Assembly (NCBI GenBank): GCA_021325375.1
Contig: JAJPHG010000020.1
Span: forward strand, 124,001-188,000
Length of the DNA: 64,000 nucleotides
Direction: 5' to 3'
DNA from: Alphaproteobacteria bacterium
Lineage (GTDB): Bacteria; Pseudomonadota; Alphaproteobacteria; Micropepsales; Micropepsaceae
Of the stretch, positions 5,558 to 41,136 are shown in pieces. Made by a program: the position numbers and the translations under genes. Every line of letters begins with the position of its first letter. Within the stretch, counting starts at the first letter, position 1. The notes under the pieces are model-generated. The model saw only the letters and a list, made by a program, of their open reading frames with translations. It was not told the DNA's origin and ran no database searches.

Positions 5558-6838
5558 ATGACGGGGTTGCATCGCGCCGTGTTGCGCGGGTTTGCCGTTC
5601 TGGCGGCGGTCGCGGCGCTCGGCGGTAGCGCCGGCGCGCACAAGATCATGGTGATCCATTCCTTCTGCGGCGAGGCCAATTGCGCCGACGGCGGCAGCGG
5701 CATGTCGCTGGTGCGCGATGCAGCGGGCAATCTCTACGGCACGGCGGCGCCGACCTCTTCGGACTATGGCTCGATCTTCGAGCTGAGCCCGGCGGGCGGC
5801 AAATGGACGTATCGCGCGCTCGATCATTTCAGCCAGGGCGCACAGCTCACGCCCAACGCGCCGCTGATCGTCGACGTGAACGGCGATCTGTACGGCTCCC
5901 TGAAGGACTACAACCGGCTCTCGCGCGGCGGCATGATCTTCAAGCTCAGTCACAGCGCGGACGGCTCGACCTGGACGTACCGCATGCTGCATTACTTCAC
6001 GCAGGATCGTTACGGCTCCGAAGGCGCGATGACCTATGCGGGCGCCGCCGCGGGTCTGCCCTATGACGGCGTCTCGACGCTCTATGGTCCCTCGGGGCAA
6101 GGCGGGCGCGATGCAAAGGGCACCATCTTCGCGCTCACCCCGCCGACCACGGGCAAGATTTGGGACTACAAGATCATCTATTCCTTCTGCCGGCGGGCCG
6201 ATTGCGCCGACGGCTGGGCGCCTTTCGACACGCTGACGATGGACGGGGCAGGCAACCTCTACGGCACCACCGTCGCCGGCGGCGCGAACGGACAAGGCGT
6301 GCTCTTCGAGCTGAGCCCGGGCGCCAAGCACTGGTCGAACACCGTGCTTCACGATTTCTGCTCGCAGAGCGATTGCGGCGAGCCGCTCACCAACAGCGTC
6401 GTCCGCGATGCCGCGGGCAACCTCTACGGCACCACGTCGGAGGACGCCGGATGTGTCGCCGGCCAGCCTTGCGGCGTCCTCTACAAGCTCGCGCCCGATG
6501 GACAGGAGAGCGTCCTGCACGGCTTCTGCTCGCAGAGCGATTGCGCCGACGGCAAGGATGCCGGCATGGGGCTGACCATGGACGCGAACGGAACGCTCTA
6601 TGGCGTGACCACCCAAGGCGGCGGCAACGACCAGGACGTCAACGGCAAGGGCGGCGGGACGATCTTCTCCTTCGACGGCAAGTATCACGTCCTGCACAGC
6701 TTCTGCGCGCGGACGAACTGCACCGACGGCGCCTATCCCATCGGCCCCTTGATCGCGGACGGCGCGGGGCATTTCTACGGCGTCACCTCAAGCGGCGGCG
6801 CAACGGGACACGGCACCATTTTCGAGTTCGCGCCTTAA
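5558..6838 (+). CDS. Secreted GloVer tandem-repeat protein
   Basis: A 426-aa exported protein with a signal peptide (MTGLHRAVLRGFAVLAAVAA, cleavage near SAGA). The rest is built of repeats with the pattern G-N-L-Y-G-T-T, a G-rich loop, then G-x-I/L-F-E/K-L-S/T-P, which is the GloVer repeat family. Between repeats there is a recurring cysteine pair: FCGEANCADG, FCRRADCADG, FCSQSDCGEP, FCSQSDCADG and FCARTNCTDG. The pairs are likely disulfides that cap each unit in the periplasm or outside the cell. Function is unknown. ATG 5558 was chosen for the signal peptide and the GGGAG upstream. A damaged paralogue lies at 60743-61416. Confidence 0.9.
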   Translation: MTGLHRAVLRGFAVLAAVAALGGSAGAHKIMVIHSFCGEANCADGGSGMSLVRDAAGNLYGTAAPTSSDYGSIFELSPAGGKWTYRALDHFSQGAQLTPNAPLIVDVNGDLYGSLKDYNRLSRGGMIFKLSHSADGSTWTYRMLHYFTQDRYGSEGAMTYAGAAAGLPYDGVSTLYGPSGQGGRDAKGTIFALTPPTTGKIWDYKIIYSFCRRADCADGWAPFDTLTMDGAGNLYGTTVAGGANGQGVLFELSPGAKHWSNTVLHDFCSQSDCGEPLTNSVVRDAAGNLYGTTSEDAGCVAGQPCGVLYKLAPDGQESVLHGFCSQSDCADGKDAGMGLTMDANGTLYGVTTQGGGNDQDVNGKGGGTIFSFDGKYHVLHSFCARTNCTDGAYPIGPLIADGAGHFYGVTSSGGATGHGTIFEFAP

Positions 6839-6948
6839 AAAGGCGGCGGGGCGGCGATTTCTCCCCGGTTTTGCCGCCACGGCCGTTTGCGCTAAAATTT
6901 CACCATAATTCGGGACCGGGATGAACCTGGACCGCCGGGGAGAGACGA

Positions 6949-8541
6949 TTGACCTTAGCCACCGTTGCCGCCGCGTCCGGCGAAGACGTTTGTCCGTTCG
7001 ACATCTCCAGCACGGGCAAGTCCGTATTCCGCGGCTTCGTGGACGCCCGCGCCAGGTTCGGCGGCAAGCGCGTCTGCATCTTCGACGTCGACGACAGCGA
7101 GCGGACCTATGACGACATCCTGCGCGGCGCGCTGGCGCTCGGCCACGCGCTGAAGGCGGGCACGAAAAAGGGGGAATGCGTCGGCGTCATGCTGCCGACC
7201 GGCGCGGGCGCGATCGCGACGTTCCTGGCGGTGTCGGCCTATGGCCGCGTTCCGGCGATGCTGAATTTCACCTCGGGCGCGGCGGCGGTCAAATCCGCAC
7301 TCAAGACGGCGCAAGTGAAGAAGATCGCGACCGCCAGGCGCCTGGTCGAGATGGCGGGGCTCCAGTCCCTGGTCGACGAACTCTCGCAGACGGCCGAGAT
7401 CGTCTATCTCGAGGACGTCCGCGCGAACCTTTCGCTCATGGACAAGGTGGCCGCGGCCGTCGGCCAGTTCTTCCCGGGGCTCATGACCTCGCATCCGTCG
7501 CCGGACGCGCCGGCGGTGATCCTCTTCACCTCCGGCACCGAAGGCGAGCCGAAAGGCGTGGCGCTCTCGCACCGCAACCTGCTCGCCAATGTCGAGCAAG
7601 TGCGGGTGCACCTGGCGCTCTATTCGTCGGACATCCTGCTCAATCCCCTGCCCGCGTTCCATTGCTTCGGGCTGACGGTCGGCTCGCTGATGCCGCCGCT
7701 GCTGGGGCTGAAGGTCGTGTGCCATCCCACGCCCTTGCAGCCGAAGGAGATCGTCAACCGCATCCGCAAGCACCAGGCGACGATCCTGGTCTCCACCGAC
7801 ACCTTCATCACGCAATATGCGCGCGTCGGCGAGCCGGGCGATCTCAAATCGCTGCGGCTGACCGTCTGCGGCGCCGAGCGGCTGCGCGACGAGACGCGCG
7901 CGCTGCTGCGCAAGAAGCACGGCATCGAGCTGCTCGAAGGCTACGGCGTCACCGAGGCCTCGCCGGTGATCGCCGCGAACCGGCCCGGCGCGAACCGTCC
8001 CGGCACCGTCGGGCAATTGATGGCCGACATGCAGCTGCGCCTCGATCCGGTGGAAGGCATCCCCAATGCGGGGCGCCTGGTGGTGAAGGGCCCGAACGTG
8101 ATGCTCGGCTATCTCAAGGCCGACGCGCCGGGCAAGATCGTGCCGCCCGATGGCGGCTGGCACGACACCGGCGACGTCGTCTCGGTGGACGAGGACGGCT
8201 ACATCGCGATCAAGGGGCGGCTGAAGCGTTTCGCCAAGATCGGCGGCGAGTCGGTTTCGCTCGCGGTCGTCGAGAGCTGCGCCTCGGCCTTGTGGCCCGA
8301 CCACGGCCACGCCGCGATCACCGTGCCCGACGGCCGCAAGGGCGAGCAGATCGTGCTCATCACCACCAACCCAGACGCCAACCGCCACGACATCGTAGGC
8401 TGGGCGCACAATCACGGCGTCTCCGAGCTCGCGATCCCGCGCCGCATCGTCTGCGTCGACGAGATACCGGTGCTCGGCACCGGCAAGACCGACTATGTGA
8501 AAGTGCAGAAGATGCTGCCCGCGGAAGGGCAAGTGAACTAG
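6949..8541 (+). CDS. AMP-dependent acyl-CoA/acyl-ACP synthetase (Aas-type ligase)
   Basis: A 530-aa adenylate-forming enzyme that activates a carboxylic acid, probably a fatty acid, with ATP. Seen: the P-loop-like LFTSGTEGEPKGVALSH near residues 190-206, the GYGVTEASPV motif, the GWHDTGDVV motif and the C-terminal GRLKRFAKIGGESVSL and PVLGTGKTDYV hinge and lysine motifs. It most resembles the ligase half of acyl-ACP synthetase/lysophospholipid acyltransferase (Aas), without the acyltransferase half. The start is TTG 6949, supported by a strong GGGGAGAG five bases upstream; no in-frame ATG fits. The exact substrate is not determined. Confidence 0.88.
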   Translation: MTLATVAAASGEDVCPFDISSTGKSVFRGFVDARARFGGKRVCIFDVDDSERTYDDILRGALALGHALKAGTKKGECVGVMLPTGAGAIATFLAVSAYGRVPAMLNFTSGAAAVKSALKTAQVKKIATARRLVEMAGLQSLVDELSQTAEIVYLEDVRANLSLMDKVAAAVGQFFPGLMTSHPSPDAPAVILFTSGTEGEPKGVALSHRNLLANVEQVRVHLALYSSDILLNPLPAFHCFGLTVGSLMPPLLGLKVVCHPTPLQPKEIVNRIRKHQATILVSTDTFITQYARVGEPGDLKSLRLTVCGAERLRDETRALLRKKHGIELLEGYGVTEASPVIAANRPGANRPGTVGQLMADMQLRLDPVEGIPNAGRLVVKGPNVMLGYLKADAPGKIVPPDGGWHDTGDVVSVDEDGYIAIKGRLKRFAKIGGESVSLAVVESCASALWPDHGHAAITVPDGRKGEQIVLITTNPDANRHDIVGWAHNHGVSELAIPRRIVCVDEIPVLGTGKTDYVKVQKMLPAEGQVN

Positions 8542-27092: not shown

Positions 27093-28079
27093 CTACCCTT
27101 GCCTTCCATTATAACGGTCGGCGATGGACTGCGGATCCAGCGAAAAACTGTCACCCACCTGGCCGTTCTTGCCCACGGTTCCCATCGCCACGCCGTCGAG
27201 ATCGATCTCGACCGCGCCGGCATTGCCGGTGGTCAGCGTCGCGCCGACCACATCGGGCACCATATAGGTGTCGCCCGCGTTCAGCGCGCGGTTGATGAGG
27301 ATCCTGCCGTCGGAGCCCTGCACCAGCACCTGCGTCGGCTGCTTGATGCGCAGGATCACGCGCGCGCCCTTGTTCTGCAGGCCGTAGACCTTGCCCGGCG
27401 GGATCGCGGCCTGCTGCTGCGTCGCATCGAGTGACGCCGGCGCTTGTGTCGCGTTCGGCGCGGGCGACGTTGAATTCGGGGCAGTCGTCGTGGGCGCAGG
27501 CACCACCGGCTGCGGCAGCGGCTGGATCTTCACGACCTGTTTCGGCGCGGGCTTGGGCGCGACGGCGGCTTGCGGCACGGGCGCAACCGGGGGCGCGAGC
27601 ATCTTGTCGGCCGCGGGCACGAGCAGATGATAGGCACCGTAGGCGAAGGCGAGCAGCACGAACGCCGCGATGATCTTCCAGCCTTGCGGCAGTCGCCTGT
27701 GCTCGTCCTCGTCGATGACGGTGATGGTGGGCGTGACGTCGTCGGTGCGGCCGGCGATCTGCGACTTGAAGCGCTCGACGCATTGCGGAGCATCGAGTCC
27801 CAGATACTCGGCATAGGTACGCACGAAACCGACGGCGTAAGTGCGTCCGGGAAGCGCCTCGATGCGGTCTTCCTCGAGCGCCTCGAGATGATCCTTGCGG
27901 ATCTTCAGCGCCTTGGACACCGTCGACAGGTCGTCGCCGCGCCGCTGCCGCGCCGCACGCAGATCCTGGCCGACCGTCTCCAGCGGCGCGTCGCTGTCGC
28001 CGGAGATCTCGCGCAGGTGGATGCGGCGCTTGTTCTGGCCGCCGCCGTCCTCAACGGTGAGATGGGTAACCTTCGTCAT
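27093..28079 (-). CDS. RodZ-like helix-turn-helix membrane protein (DUF4115)
   Basis: A 328-aa protein: an N-terminal Cro-type helix-turn-helix (about residues 37-100: [35 protein letters not shown]), one membrane span ([20 protein letters not shown] near 133), a Pro/Ala-rich periplasmic linker and a C-terminal DUF4115 domain ([20 protein letters not shown]). This is the RodZ plan, in which the protein links MreB to the cell-wall machinery; whether this homologue does so is inferred. It is directly upstream of ispG. Confidence 0.9.
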
Positions 28080-36270: not shown

Positions 36271-36774
36271 CTATCTGCCCGGCTTCAGGCGGCCCGTATC
36301 GACGGTTGCCGGAAGCGGCAGCACCTTGCCCGGGGCCGTCGCGTTCAGCGTGAAGGCTTGCTTCGCCGAGGTGCAGAACTGTGCCTGCTTCGGCGGCGTC
36401 ATGCCCGGGACGAACGTGGCCGTGTAGCTCGTGATCGTTCCCTTGATCTGCGTGTGGCCGACGAAATGCATTGAGCCCGTGGTGTAGTAGTAGTCGTTTT
36501 GGCTGGTGAAATCCGCCGACCCGCTGCTGATGTCCTGGTTGAGTCCGAAGCCCCAACCTTCGTTCGCCGTGTTTCCGGTTTTCTTGCACGGCGCAATCAT
36601 GCCCACGCTCATGCTGGTGACGGTGTAGGCGCTGCCGGAATGCGACACGACGAGAGAGATGGTTGCTCCGTCGGTCGAACTTCCGGCAAAGCTTCCGGCC
36701 GCCTGCGCATAGGCACCGCCTGCGATCAGGCACGCCGCGCCGGCGATGCCCACGATAAATGAAATCCGTTTCAT
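36271..36774 (-). CDS. Small secreted protein of unknown function
   Basis: A 167-aa protein with a clear signal peptide (MKRISFIVGIAGAACLIAGG, cleaved near AYAQA). The mature part is Ser/Thr/Gly-rich with two cysteines (APCKKTG and QFCTSAK) that may form one disulfide, and looks all-beta. I do not recognise the family. ATG 36774 has GAGG six bases upstream. It converges with the glycosyltransferase gene, with only four bases between the stops. Confidence 0.8.
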   Translation of the reverse strand: MKRISFIVGIAGAACLIAGGAYAQAAGSFAGSSTDGATISLVVSHSGSAYTVTSMSVGMIAPCKKTGNTANEGWGFGLNQDISSGSADFTSQNDYYYTTGSMHFVGHTQIKGTITSYTATFVPGMTPPKQAQFCTSAKQAFTLNATAPGKVLPLPATVDTGRLKPGR

Positions 36775-36841
36775 GATTAGCCTCATGTCGTTGTGCCCCC
36801 TGCATCTACTATAAGCGCTGGAACATGAGAACGCGAGGCGC

Positions 36842-37258
36842 CTAGTTCGCGGCTTCGTCCGGATCGGGCGGCAGGGGAGCCACGTCGATGCCCTCCTCCA
36901 CCAGTTCCACCGCTTCCTTGACCGTGGATTCGCCGTAGATCTGGCGTTCTTCCGTCTCGCCGTAATGGATCTTGCGCGCTTCTTCGGCGAAACGGGGGCC
37001 GACATACTCCGCGTTGTCCTGAACGTATTTGCGCAGGCCCGTCATGAACTGGCGCATTTTGCGCATCTCTTCGGGCGCGGTGACGGACGTCTTGGTCCCC
37101 GCGACGGCGGGGGCCATGATCGCCTTCTCGACCTTGCGCGAGTTGCAGATGGGACAGACGAGCTTGGCCGAAGCGGCCTGCGCGTCGAACGCGGCGCCGT
37201 CCTTGAACCAGCCTTCGAACTCGTGCCCCGCCTTGCAGCGAAGATTGTAGACGATCAC
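36842..37258 (-). CDS. DUF1178 family protein
   Basis: A 138-aa protein with the family start VIVYNLRCKAGHEFEGWFKD (start GTG 37258) and a zinc-ribbon-like pair of motifs, LRCKAGH and LVCPICNSRKVEKAI, followed by a helical region and YGETEERQIYGES. The function of the family is unknown. In alphaproteobacteria it is usually encoded next to the nitrilase and glutaredoxin genes, as here, except that two extra genes now lie between. Confidence 0.9.
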   Translation of the reverse strand: MIVYNLRCKAGHEFEGWFKDGAAFDAQAASAKLVCPICNSRKVEKAIMAPAVAGTKTSVTAPEEMRKMRQFMTGLRKYVQDNAEYVGPRFAEEARKIHYGETEERQIYGESTVKEAVELVEEGIDVAPLPPDPDEAAN

Positions 37259-37320
37259 TTGTGCGGTATCCGCATTGCACCAGGACCATGGACACAAAAG
37301 CCATCCCGGGCAAGCCGCCG

Positions 37321-38631
37321 TCAGGGCGGTGGCGCGATATCGGAAAACAGCTTGTAGGGGGGCGTGCGCAGATAAGCGGCGATCTGCAACTGCGCTTGAT
37401 AGGGAACAGCGGCCCTGCGCGCATCCCAGAGCGCCAATTCCTCCGTCGACAGCCCGGTGGAATGGGCCATCGCGTCCAAGTCCGCGCCCTGCTGCTTCAG
37501 TGCGATTTTGAGGTCGATCGCCCAGCGGTCCGCTTCCTCCTGGACCTGAAATATCCTGGCGCCGGTCTCGCGCATCCATTGCGTCACGCGACGCGAAAGG
37601 TAGCCGGACACGATGGCGAAGAACGAGACGAGATACGGACTGAGTTGTACGCTGCCGCCGGTGCCGTTGCCCGACTGTGCCAAGGTCAGCGCGCCGGCGC
37701 CCGCAAAGAAAAACACGGCGAGCGCGACGGATGCGCCAAGGGCGGTGCGAAACAGGTATACCCCGAACTTGTATTTGGTGTCTTCGAAGAGAATCTCCCG
37801 CGTGAGCGCGATCAATGCTCCCAGCACTCCCATCAGCACGGTGAGAAACAACGTCAGCACGATGCTTGGGAGAGAGACGAAATAGAACGGGAACCCGAAG
37901 AATATCCCTTGATAGGATTCCAGATCGTCGGTCACCTGCGCCTCGCTGTCGTTCTTCTTGAGGCGGTCGTACCACCGCTTGCTGTCGGCGGCGCTGACCC
38001 CGGCCATCTTCTCCGCGTAGTTCTTGTCCGCGATCTTGTTGTCCAGGGTGTCGACTTTCGTCTGAAGGGCGCGCAGGTCACTGCGCGACGCATCCAGCAG
38101 CTTGCCAACGGCCTTGCTCTCGTCGGCCGGCATGGCTCTCCTGCGCTCATTGATGTATTTGGTCGCGCCGAAAATATCGTCGCTCGCAGACTCCAAGGAG
38201 CGCTCGAAATCGGCCGACTCAAAGCCGCCGGATATGTTCTTGGGCGCCACCATCAGCCGCGAATACAGTTCGGAAACGTCCGCCTTCAAGGCGCTACGCG
38301 TCATCGCAGCGGTCAGTTGCGCGGCGCGGACGTCGTTGTCGGCCTTGCCGAGCTTGCCCAAGTTCGCTTTGAGGTTGGCCGCGGAGGCCTGCGAGCCGCG
38401 AAGAATGTGGTTGTATTGATCAACGAGAAAGACGACTTGGCCCACGGTTCGCTGTTTCGAATCCGTGTTGCTCACGATCTGTGTCTGAAATTGCTGCGCC
38501 GCCATCGTAATGACGATGAAGCACATGCAGGACAGGAACGACACGATCAGGATAGCGGCCGTCGCCATGTTGGCGGCGAAGTTTTTGTGCTCCTCGATCG
38601 GGCGATCCGCCGGCAACACGTCCACGACCAT
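37321..38631 (-). CDS. Multi-span membrane protein with C-terminal XRE-like helix-turn-helix
   Basis: A 436-aa protein I cannot place in a family. One membrane span near residues 22-45, a long helical, probably coiled-coil region (about 55-245: QQFQTQIVSNTDSKQRTVGQ to DRLKKNDSEAQVTDD), then three spans (about 255-290, 300-330 and 343-362). The final 55 residues match the XRE pattern: LKIALKQQGADLDAMAHSTG and LSTEELALWDARRAAVP then IAAYLRTPPYKLF, i.e. helix-turn-helix spacing with the conserved W. ATG 38631 with GGGGG upstream is chosen over TTG 38649. If the coiled coil is periplasmic, the DNA-binding-like tail would be cytoplasmic, like a membrane-bound regulator. Confidence 0.72.
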   Translation of the reverse strand: MVVDVLPADRPIEEHKNFAANMATAAILIVSFLSCMCFIVITMAAQQFQTQIVSNTDSKQRTVGQVVFLVDQYNHILRGSQASAANLKANLGKLGKADNDVRAAQLTAAMTRSALKADVSELYSRLMVAPKNISGGFESADFERSLESASDDIFGATKYINERRRAMPADESKAVGKLLDASRSDLRALQTKVDTLDNKIADKNYAEKMAGVSAADSKRWYDRLKKNDSEAQVTDDLESYQGIFFGFPFYFVSLPSIVLTLFLTVLMGVLGALIALTREILFEDTKYKFGVYLFRTALGASVALAVFFFAGAGALTLAQSGNGTGGSVQLSPYLVSFFAIVSGYLSRRVTQWMRETGARIFQVQEEADRWAIDLKIALKQQGADLDAMAHSTGLSTEELALWDARRAAVPYQAQLQIAAYLRTPPYKLFSDIAPPP

Positions 38632-38678
38632 TTCCGCCCCCACAGACAATCAGAGATTGTATCGTGTGGCGTAGAAAA

Positions 38679-39269
38679 TCAAGTCCTTCCCAGCCGCCGC
38701 CGACCGGCGCTCGCGGCAAGCACGAGCCATGCGCCGAGGGCAGCGAGCTTCTCGTCCTGCGTCCAGGGCGCGCCCATTTCCTTGCCGAACGCGGCCAGAC
38801 GCGCGCGCCAATCGGTGAGATGATCCGCCTCCGCCGCGATGTCGCGTTCGCGCAGACGCGACACGGCGATCCCGGCGCGCGTACAGGCATCGGCAACGAC
38901 GTCGCGATAGAATTCGCCTTCCGCCGCATGGATCAGCGCATGCGATGCGAGGATCGTGCGCAGATCGGGAAGCGGCTTGCCGGATGCCGTCAACACGCAG
39001 CAACGCGATATCGGCTGCAGCGCCTTCAGCGCTTCGTCCGCCAGACGGTCCGCCACAGCCCGGCAGCGCGCGATGAATTCTTCGGCGCGTGCGAACGGCA
39101 TCGGCTCGGCTTCGTGGAACGGTTGCTTGTGGCCGTCACAGAGCGTCATGCGGCCGCGCGCGACGATGGCGGGCGCGCCGGCGTCACCCGCAAGCACGCA
39201 ATAGGCCGCCCAGCCTGAATGCGAGCGGACGCCCAATGCGCGCTTAGGGGCCTTCGAACTCCCGGTCAT
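38679..39269 (-). CDS. Hypothetical protein, 196 aa
   Basis: Starts MTGSSKAPKRALGVRSHSGW at 39269, overlapping the end of the nitrilase gene by 26 bases, so it is probably co-translated. The N-terminal AAYCVLAGDAGAPAIVARGR and the repeated acidic residues later (ILASHALIHAAEGEFYRDVV) look like a small ribonuclease-H-like or resolvase-type fold, but this is weak. No signal peptide or membrane span. Function unknown. Confidence 0.7.
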   Translation of the reverse strand: MTGSSKAPKRALGVRSHSGWAAYCVLAGDAGAPAIVARGRMTLCDGHKQPFHEAEPMPFARAEEFIARCRAVADRLADEALKALQPISRCCVLTASGKPLPDLRTILASHALIHAAEGEFYRDVVADACTRAGIAVSRLRERDIAAEADHLTDWRARLAAFGKEMGAPWTQDEKLAALGAWLVLAASAGRRRLGRT

Positions 39270-40065
39270 GCGACAAGCTTGGCACGCGCGAGCGCGCGGA
39301 GGTGGCAGCAGCAGGATCGACATCGGCCACGATCACGCCCGGCTCCGTCCCGGCCTCGGCAAGGATTTCGCCCCAGGGCGCTATGATGAGCGAATGCCCG
39401 TAGGTCTGACGGCCGTTCGCGTGTGTGCCGCCCTGCGCGGGCGCGATGACGAAGGCGCCGTTCTCGATCGCGCGGGCGCGCAGGAGCACGTGCCAGTGCG
39501 CCTTTCCCGTCGTCTCGGTAAACGCCGACGGCACGCTGAGCACCATCGCGCCCGCCTGCGCGAGCTTGCGATAGAGCCGCGCGAAGCGCAGGTCGTAGCA
39601 TATCGTCATGCCGAGCCTGCCCCAGGGCAGATCGGCCGTGACGGCGCGGCGGCCGCCTTCGACGGTGTTGGACTCGCGATAGCGCTCGCCCGAGCCCGGA
39701 TCGGTGTCGAAAAGATGGATCTTGTCGTAGCGCGCCGCGATGCGTCCCTTCGCATCGATCAGGAAAGAGCGGTTGGCGGTCTTGGTGGCGCTCACCTTGA
39801 TCGCGAGCGAGCCGATCAAGAGCCACACGCCCAATTCCTCTGCGAGCGCGCGAAACGCGGGCAGCGCGGGATCGGCGTCTTCGCTGAAGCTGCGCTCGAG
39901 CTTGGCGCCGCCGTCGGGCGCCATCAGCGTCGTGTTCTCGGGCGTGGCGATGAACTCGGCACCCAAAGCGCGCGCCTCGCGGACCAACTCCGACGTGATC
40001 TCGATGTTCTGCGCCACGTCGTCCGACGAGCGCAGCTGCACGCAGGCGGCGCGGAAGGCGCTCAT
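39244..40065 (-). CDS. Carbon-nitrogen hydrolase (Nit/omega-amidase type)
   Basis: A 273-aa nitrilase-superfamily amidase. The Glu-Lys-Cys triad is visible in TPENTTLM (Glu near 43), YDKIHLFD (Lys near 114) and TICYDLRFARLY (Cys near 155). The sequence is closest to Nit1/deaminated-glutathione amidases, a metabolite repair function. Its start overlaps the grxC stop (ATGA), and that coupling to glutaredoxin fits a glutathione-related role, which is inference. Confidence 0.92.
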   Translation of the reverse strand: MSAFRAACVQLRSSDDVAQNIEITSELVREARALGAEFIATPENTTLMAPDGGAKLERSFSEDADPALPAFRALAEELGVWLLIGSLAIKVSATKTANRSFLIDAKGRIAARYDKIHLFDTDPGSGERYRESNTVEGGRRAVTADLPWGRLGMTICYDLRFARLYRKLAQAGAMVLSVPSAFTETTGKAHWHVLLRARAIENGAFVIAPAQGGTHANGRQTYGHSLIIAPWGEILAEAGTEPGVIVADVDPAAATSARSRVPSLSHDREFEGP

Positions 40066-40322
40066 TGCTTGTGCAGCAGCGGGTCCAGCCCGCCCGCGCG
40101 GTCTAGTGCGTAGAGGTCATCGCAGCCGCCGACATGGGTCTCGCCGATGAATATCTGCGGCACGGTGCGGCGGCCGTTGGTCTGCGCCTCCATCTCCACG
40201 CGCGCGTCGTGATCCATGAACACGTCGATCTCCTCGATCTCGGCGCCCTTCTTCTTCAGGAGCGACTTCGCCCGCACGCAATACGGGCAGATGGGTGTGG
40301 TGTAGATGCGGACCTTCGACAT
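40062..40322 (-). CDS. grxC: Glutaredoxin 3
   Basis: An 86-aa dithiol glutaredoxin that reduces disulfides with glutathione. Active site CPYC (TTPICPYCVRAK) near residues 12-15, cis-Pro in TVPQIFIG and the GG of HVGGCDDLYALD for glutathione binding. ATG 40322 is chosen; the open frame starts nine codons earlier without similarity. Followed by the nitrilase with a four-base overlap. Confidence 0.95.
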   Translation of the reverse strand: MSKVRIYTTPICPYCVRAKSLLKKKGAEIEEIDVFMDHDARVEMEAQTNGRRTVPQIFIGETHVGGCDDLYALDRAGGLDPLLHKQ

Positions 40323-40371
40323 ACGCGCACTCGCGGACGGCGGAATCACTACGACACTTCTATTACAACAA

Positions 40372-41136
40372 CTATATAGAGGTCGTTAGCGGCCTAACAA
40401 CGCGGGCCAGGGCCAGGACGTGCACTTTTGCGGCCCCTGCGCGCTTTAGGGCACGGGCGCAGGCCTCCACCGTGGCGCCGGTCGTCAGCACGTCGTCGAT
40501 CAGCAGGACCGCCCTGCCCTCGACCCGCCCCCGCCGCCCCGGCGGCACCCGGAAAGCGCCGCGCATGTTGCGCCGCCGAGCCTTTGCGGAGGGCATTTCG
40601 CCCTGGCTGGGCGTGGCGCGGACGCGGACCAGCACCAGCGGCTCGACCGTCTTGCCGGACAGCCGGCTGAGCCCACGGGCCAGCTCCGCCGATTGGTTGT
40701 AGCGCCGCGCCCACAATCTTGAGGCGTGCAGCGGCACCGGAACGATGATCTCGATGTCATCAAGCAGCACGCGGCCGGCGCGGTCCAACCAGCGCGCGAA
40801 GCCGGGGATCAGGTCGAGCCGGTCGGCGTGCTTGAGCGCCAGAATCGGCCCGCGGCTGCCTTCGTCATAGCGCATCACCGCGCGGGCGCGGTCGAAGGCG
40901 GGCGGCTCGGCGATGCAGGCCGCGCATCGTGTATCGGGTCCAGGGTCGAGCTCGAACGGAAGGCCGCAGCACATACAGGCGGGCCCGTCGAGGAACTCGA
41001 TCTCCTGCCAGCACGCGGCACAGAGGCTTCCCGGCTCGGCCACCATCGCGCGGCAGCCGATGCAGAGCGGCGGATAGAGGAAGTCGAGCGCCGTGCGCCC
41101 CGCGCGCTTCCATGCGTTCTGCATCCCCGCCGTCAT
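40372..41136 (-). CDS. ComF family phosphoribosyltransferase-like protein
   Basis: A 254-aa protein with an N-terminal zinc-ribbon region of paired cysteines (PPLCIGCRAM, SLCAACWQE, PACMCCGLPF, TRCAACIAE) and a C-terminal phosphoribosyltransferase domain with the PRPP loop VLLIDDVLTTGATVEACARA. ComF homologues act in DNA uptake in naturally competent bacteria; here competence is unproven. It is divergent from the methyltransferase at 41154, with 17 bases between the starts. Confidence 0.92.
   Translation of the reverse strand: MTAGMQNAWKRAGRTALDFLYPPLCIGCRAMVAEPGSLCAACWQEIEFLDGPACMCCGLPFELDPGPDTRCAACIAEPPAFDRARAVMRYDEGSRGPILALKHADRLDLIPGFARWLDRAGRVLLDDIEIIVPVPLHASRLWARRYNQSAELARGLSRLSGKTVEPLVLVRVRATPSQGEMPSAKARRRNMRGAFRVPPGRRGRVEGRAVLLIDDVLTTGATVEACARALKRAGAAKVHVLALARVVRPLTTSI

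Follow-up and report, generated by a model that had tools for sequence, protein, structure and literature searches.

The minus-strand open reading frame at 37,321–38,631 of the 64,000-nucleotide stretch of DNA analysed here (the window) is a genuine gene for a 436-amino-acid, four-span membrane protein that ends in a tail with a predicted Cro/XRE fold. The explanation we prefer, to which we give about an even chance, is that of a four-span inner-membrane signalling or scaffolding protein whose XRE-fold tail most likely binds protein, not DNA; we infer both the signalling and the protein binding. Both ends of such a protein would be cytoplasmic and its large helical domain periplasmic, and a change in the periplasm or membrane would be relayed through a conserved three-span core to the cytoplasmic tail, which would then bind a partner protein or its own copies.

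The tail is missed at Pfam and NCBIfam cut-offs, so domain-match surveys of membrane regulators could overlook such proteins, and among the titles and abstract openings listed by searches of an open-access library none described a protein of this architecture. Protein binding by the acidic tail would make it another membrane XRE domain, besides that of RodZ, that does not regulate genes, and a C-terminal domain on a four-span protein offers a simple case for deciding between DNA and protein binding.

Membrane core and C-terminal fold

That the open reading frame is real follows from the GGGGGCGG stretch immediately 5′ of the ATG at 38,631 and from a same-genome paralogue on another contig (40% identity over approximately the last 200 residues). 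This ATG gives 436 amino acids and sets the residue numbering used here, while an alternative TTG 18 bases upstream would give 442. As to recent acquisition, base composition points both ways: the GC3 of the gene (0.805) lies inside the spread of the window (mean 0.815), but its GC content of 60.4% is the lowest among the nine genes compared (62.0–70.8%). The protein matched no Pfam or NCBIfam model at cut-off; a PDB sequence search returned at best a phycocyanin (E = 0.42) for the whole protein and no match for the tail alone.

The first-pass annotation described a multi-span membrane protein, and hydropathy bears this out with four spans, all encoded on the minus strand: TM1 (residues 25–43; 38,503–38,559; hydropathy 2.62), TM2 (residues 257–275; 37,807–37,863; 2.66), TM3 (residues 297–315; 37,687–37,743; 2.04) and TM4 (residues 328–346; 37,594–37,650; 1.29). 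The N-terminal span is followed by approximately 205 mostly helical residues, the three further spans and a tail of approximately 80 residues. The predicted periplasmic helical region (residues 46–250; 37,882–38,496, minus strand) is almost all helix in AlphaFold2 at middling confidence (block pLDDT 45–78; helices at 63–127, 139–166, 169–201, 205–210, 214–226 and 228–244), with a mean entropy of 1.86; the full-protein model, built from five sequences, has a mean pLDDT of 63.6 and a pTM of 0.36. Several matches to this part of the protein were set aside: flavodoxin and DUF5326 (E = 0.003–0.04, below cut-off, each in one of eight members) fall on the helical region or TM2, and when the full model was compared with known structures, PI3K-p85 and SMC matched the helical region and no other part. 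PADLOC hits to ZorA, JetC, Avs2 and LmuB (best E = 0.0013) each concern one of nine members and were put down to long-helix likeness, the Avs2 match, the one with a position given, lying in the helical region.

TM1, TM2 and TM3 exceed the hydropathy threshold and TM4 is weaker. In each of the 11 intact, tail-bearing members of the family it has the lowest hydropathy of the four spans (best 19-residue mean 0.78–2.02), yet it carries a conserved SPYL...GYLS motif and has the lowest entropy among the segments measured; the model has a pLDDT of approximately 40 there. Lysine and arginine counts across the same 11 members are 1–3 in the TM2–TM3 loop, 0–1 in the TM3–TM4 loop and 2–5 just after TM4. 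This charge bias would place the tail on the cytoplasmic side, provided that the weakly hydrophobic TM4, on which the sidedness depends, is a true span; the periplasmic placement that the first-pass annotation named as counting against its view was not seen.

The tail itself (residues 369–434; 37,330–37,527, minus strand) is, on structural modelling, a Cro/XRE domain, as that annotation had proposed, with AlphaFold2, VIA-align and Foldseek in agreement; a tail predicted not to be a helix-turn-helix, the other result named there as counting against the view, was not obtained. Predicted alone, it forms a five-helix domain, including the helix 2–3 helix-turn-helix that characterizes the superfamily, with a mean pLDDT of 83.2 and block values of 90–93 over residues 21–70 of 82; this is one of five models, the remaining four having mean pLDDTs of 44–66. 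Inside the full model, residues 371–430 reach block pLDDTs of 83–86. The best PDB match by VIA-align is CylR2 (2xiu_B; Z = 11.4, rmsd 1.6, 64 of 65 residues aligned; Z = 10.9 for the full model), and the first 17 among the best 50 rows are regulators, repressors, an antitoxin component or putative DNA-binding proteins with the XRE fold. Foldseek gave probabilities of 1.00 with E values no better than 0.0085, which is unsurprising for so short a domain.

Sequence profiles stay below their cut-offs. HTH_35 scores 17.6 bits on the tail against a cut-off of 25 (E = 0.0039), phage repressor families reach E = 0.03, and YdaS, matched in two of eight members at a position in the protein that the search does not give, has a best E of 0.015. 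The family profile also matched a free-standing regulator from another genome through tail positions only (E = 1 × 10−4), a protein that Pfam identifies by HTH_3 (E = 4.8 × 10−8).

A C-terminal XRE domain had been called unusual, and comparison with known systems justifies the point. ToxR, CadC and the wider class of membrane regulators combine a membrane protein with a cytoplasmic helix-turn-helix and a periplasmic domain, as the window protein is predicted to do, but in ToxR and CadC the helix-turn-helix domain is N-terminal and belongs to another class, whereas in the window protein it is C-terminal and has an acidic helix 3. CylR2 and other small Cro/XRE repressors, onto which the tail superposes over nearly its whole length, differ in charge pattern, and CylR2, at 19% identity, is a soluble DNA-binding protein. 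XRE-fold domains of HppE and HEPD also appear among the fold matches (Z = 8.9–9.5), in a soluble oxygenase and without a membrane core; we know of no DNA reading by the XRE fold of either enzyme. RodZ shares an XRE-family fold on a membrane protein, cytoplasmic in RodZ and predicted to be so in the window protein, and the RodZ domain is described as binding MreB and itself, not DNA (PMC6946637). It is, however, bitopic, with an N-terminal HTH_25 followed by one span, an arrangement that the four-span window protein lacks. The genome's own RodZ, which has this arrangement, is encoded in the same window (27,093–28,079, minus strand) and served as a control.

Charge and conservation of the tail

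Helix 3 (residues 396–404; 37,420–37,446, minus strand) occupies the position of the DNA-reading helix and is both acidic and variable. Scored over the seven residues before the core tryptophan, with the register of the controls set by hand, it contains at least two acidic residues in 11 of 11 members and in none of the 28 XRE domains taken as controls from the window's genome; its sum is negative in 11 of 11 against 1 of 28, and its mean net charge is −2.0 against +0.6. Over the first 53 residues of the domain, the mean net charge is −1.1 for members and +2.7 for controls, of which four are net negative as whole domains. Mann–Whitney values for these comparisons overstate the significance, as the 11 members are related and represent few independent lineages.

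Helix 3 is also the least conserved part of the tail (mean entropy 1.76), together with helix 2 (1.70) and ahead of helix 4 (1.36), helix 1 (1.24) and the C-terminal stretch (1.22), while the turn after helix 3 is the most conserved (1.07). Ten tail positions are invariant in all 11 members, namely R369, W370, W402, V409, P410, Q414, L421, F429, D431 and P434, among them the conserved tryptophan (W402) picked out in the first-pass annotation. V409 and P410 sit in the helix 3–4 turn, and F429, D431 and P434 are C-terminal. Protein binding appears likely to us because acidity and variability mark the reading helix, whereas the helix 3–4 turn, Q414 and the C-terminal residues are fixed. The description of the tail as a DNA-binding part, made before these comparisons, accordingly finds little favour in the acidity and variability of helix 3.

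Two considerations temper this argument. Variability of helix 3 would also fit a family in which every copy recognizes a different operator, and helix 2 is nearly as variable. The RodZ XRE domain, which binds protein, is itself basic, so the charge test fails to separate the two roles: among related genomes from the same genus and class as the window, its net charge averages +1.1 (one domain at −2, two at 0), and the region around helix 3 is basic too. Here 18 loci were used from 24, of which 15 were readable and three too short, and whole-domain charge alone is quoted because the automatic helix 3 register was off for most RodZ rows. Judged from sequence, the acidic helix 3 leans against ordinary groove reading and proves neither a protein partner nor an inability to bind DNA.

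The principal alternative, which we consider possible though on balance doubtful, is a membrane-bound one-component transcription regulator in which the periplasmic helical domain would sense and the membrane-held XRE tail would bind a promoter, in the manner of ToxR and CadC with their N-terminal domains. The window protein has the one or more transmembrane regions expected of a transmembrane transcription regulator, and its tail closely matches the fold of true DNA-binding repressors. Such regulators are common: one survey counts 50,302 in 9,673 genomes, with the helix-turn-helix as the commonest DNA-binding domain (PMC10269533). The acidity and variability of helix 3 weigh against this assignment. 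A 17-base imperfect inverted repeat (38,635–38,671; 71% complementary) lies just 5′ of the ATG, where an operator might be sought, but we rejected it as one, since an equal or better repeat occurs in 31 of 2,000 shuffles of the region and at 7 of 54 open reading frame starts in the window. RNA folding of the repeat is ordinary (z = −1.14), and the interval 36,700–40,500 holds one promoter-like site against 0.6 expected, located away from the membrane-protein gene.

Distribution of the family and variation of the core

The family is rare and patchy. Its 11 intact, tail-bearing members comprise eight in the window's genus and three outside it. Within the genus, five genomes have intact genes: the window's genome, G091 and G099 have two copies apiece, and G004 and G013 a single one. 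G022 retains only a remnant of 89 codons, the end of which matches the tail. An order-wide search of 96 genomes with the G004 homologue as query gave matches in six, all of them in this genus. Further afield, tail-bearing homologues occur in two of the 297 genomes searched from a single further family of the class, and 1 of 72,556 plasmid records, a Rhizobium etli IE4771 plasmid, carries a homologue with 27% identity over 90% coverage including the tail. Samples of 387 genomes of the class and of 397 and 387 of the phylum added only relatives matching short of the tail, or weak matches. In the tree, the window copy sits on a long branch (2.48) with no supported close kin.

No relatives emerged among 39 pattern matches in a single-protein scan of genome contigs or among 59 viral contigs searched with the family alignment, and phage records contained no match to the protein. 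The alignment used for the other-family, PADLOC and viral-contig searches (A5) has one row, a G099 copy (G099_B), without the end of its tail; the charge and entropy comparisons used the full tail. Left out of the member count were three chemoreceptor-like proteins (G994 C199, G1051 and G904), a cation-efflux-like transporter (G656) and a peptidase-like protein from Bacteroidales (L032), all named by likeness, as well as the Pfam-identified free-standing XRE regulator mentioned above (G1095).

Neighbours vary between loci. In the window's own genome and in G013, G091 and G099, the paralogue or its counterparts occupy a conserved place: on one side lies a glutamine synthetase, accompanied by a P-II-like gene, and on the other a pair of histidine kinases and then a gyrase-B-type gene. 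The remnant in G022 adjoins the same glutamine synthetase and kinases. Pfam confirms the names of the glutamine synthetase, the two kinases and the gyrase-B-type protein for the window's own genome; at the other loci they are given by likeness. The paralogue lies at 5,882–7,399 of its locus (L021), with the counterparts in L015, L016 and L017 and the remnant in L011/L019. G091 and G099 carry tandem pairs of the family gene, and the G004 copy lies at a different place, near a panC-like gene (by likeness). Downstream of the R. etli homologue come an AAA ATPase/McrC pair and a UvrD-type helicase (L035, 5,896–13,203). The window copy has no conserved partner gene next to it.

Some relatives of the membrane core have no tail. 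Those in G028, G322 and G450 end shortly after TM4; in G450 (L033, 4,606–6,309) the last spans of the tailless protein are repeated behind it in a copy of 83 codons, which makes a partial tandem duplication. In the window's own genome, a 343-amino-acid protein (L144, 1,486–2,517, minus strand) is SLOG-like in its N-terminal half and weakly resembles the three-span core in its C-terminal membrane part. We regard as rather unlikely the idea that a previously undescribed three-span membrane core carries various cytoplasmic domains from protein to protein (an acidic XRE fold that binds protein, a SLOG-like domain or none), with the XRE fold acting as the docking or gating domain of a membrane effector and not as a gene regulator. 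A related proposal, that the family is a membrane effector module, perhaps one that forms a pore or disturbs the membrane, whose cytoplasmic input domains can be exchanged, the XRE tail among them, and which serves in stress or mobile-element defence, strikes us as quite unlikely. The core profile does match the SLOG-like protein (E = 5.5 × 10−6), and the patchy presence, the plasmid copy beside the AAA ATPase/McrC pair and the G022 remnant would fit, but hhalign against the full-length family alignment (A3) gives this link a probability of 7%, the SLOG match itself lies below the Pfam cut-off (E = 0.001), the PADLOC matches are weak and the neighbours differ between loci. That the tail is a decayed former DNA-binding domain doing no more than stabilizing the protein is highly improbable: helix 3 without regulator-like charge, the tailless relatives and the truncated G022 remnant could be read this way, but the ten tail positions shared by all 11 members, which span two distinct bacterial families, suggest selection.

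Insertion into the DUF1178–nitrilase block

The window copy occupies a setting of its own, all of it on the minus strand. Downstream lies a DUF1178 protein (36,842–37,258; PF06676, E = 3 × 10−49) and upstream a 214-amino-acid protein of uncertain start (38,679–39,323; best Pfam E = 0.13, below cut-off), followed by the carbon–nitrogen hydrolase of the nitrilase family (39,244–40,065; PF00795, E = 3.7 × 10−52) that belongs to the conserved block. The gene was initially noted as interrupting a conserved DUF1178–nitrilase block, and comparison of DUF1178 loci upholds this. Loci were compared for the best 30 out of 44 genomes with a match, the window's own among them; in the other 29, the 1.5 kb upstream of DUF1178 contain a nitrilase 26 times (G091, G002 and G100 have none in reach) and this membrane-protein gene never. 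Within these 30 loci the window's genome is therefore the sole carrier of the insertion, and G091, the closest relative by DUF1178 (87%), has no membrane gene there. The 214-amino-acid gene also separates nitrilase from DUF1178 in the window; it has a relative in G091 (72% identity), immediately preceding DUF1178, and another in G082 (49%), where nitrilase and DUF1178 flank it. Beside the full DUF1178 gene, 6 of the 45 genus genomes searched (G007, G010, G033, G076, G077 and G079; also loci L078 and L080), two of which showed it again in the locus comparison, carry a second, partial DUF1178-like stretch of approximately 55–60 residues corresponding to the zinc-ribbon end.
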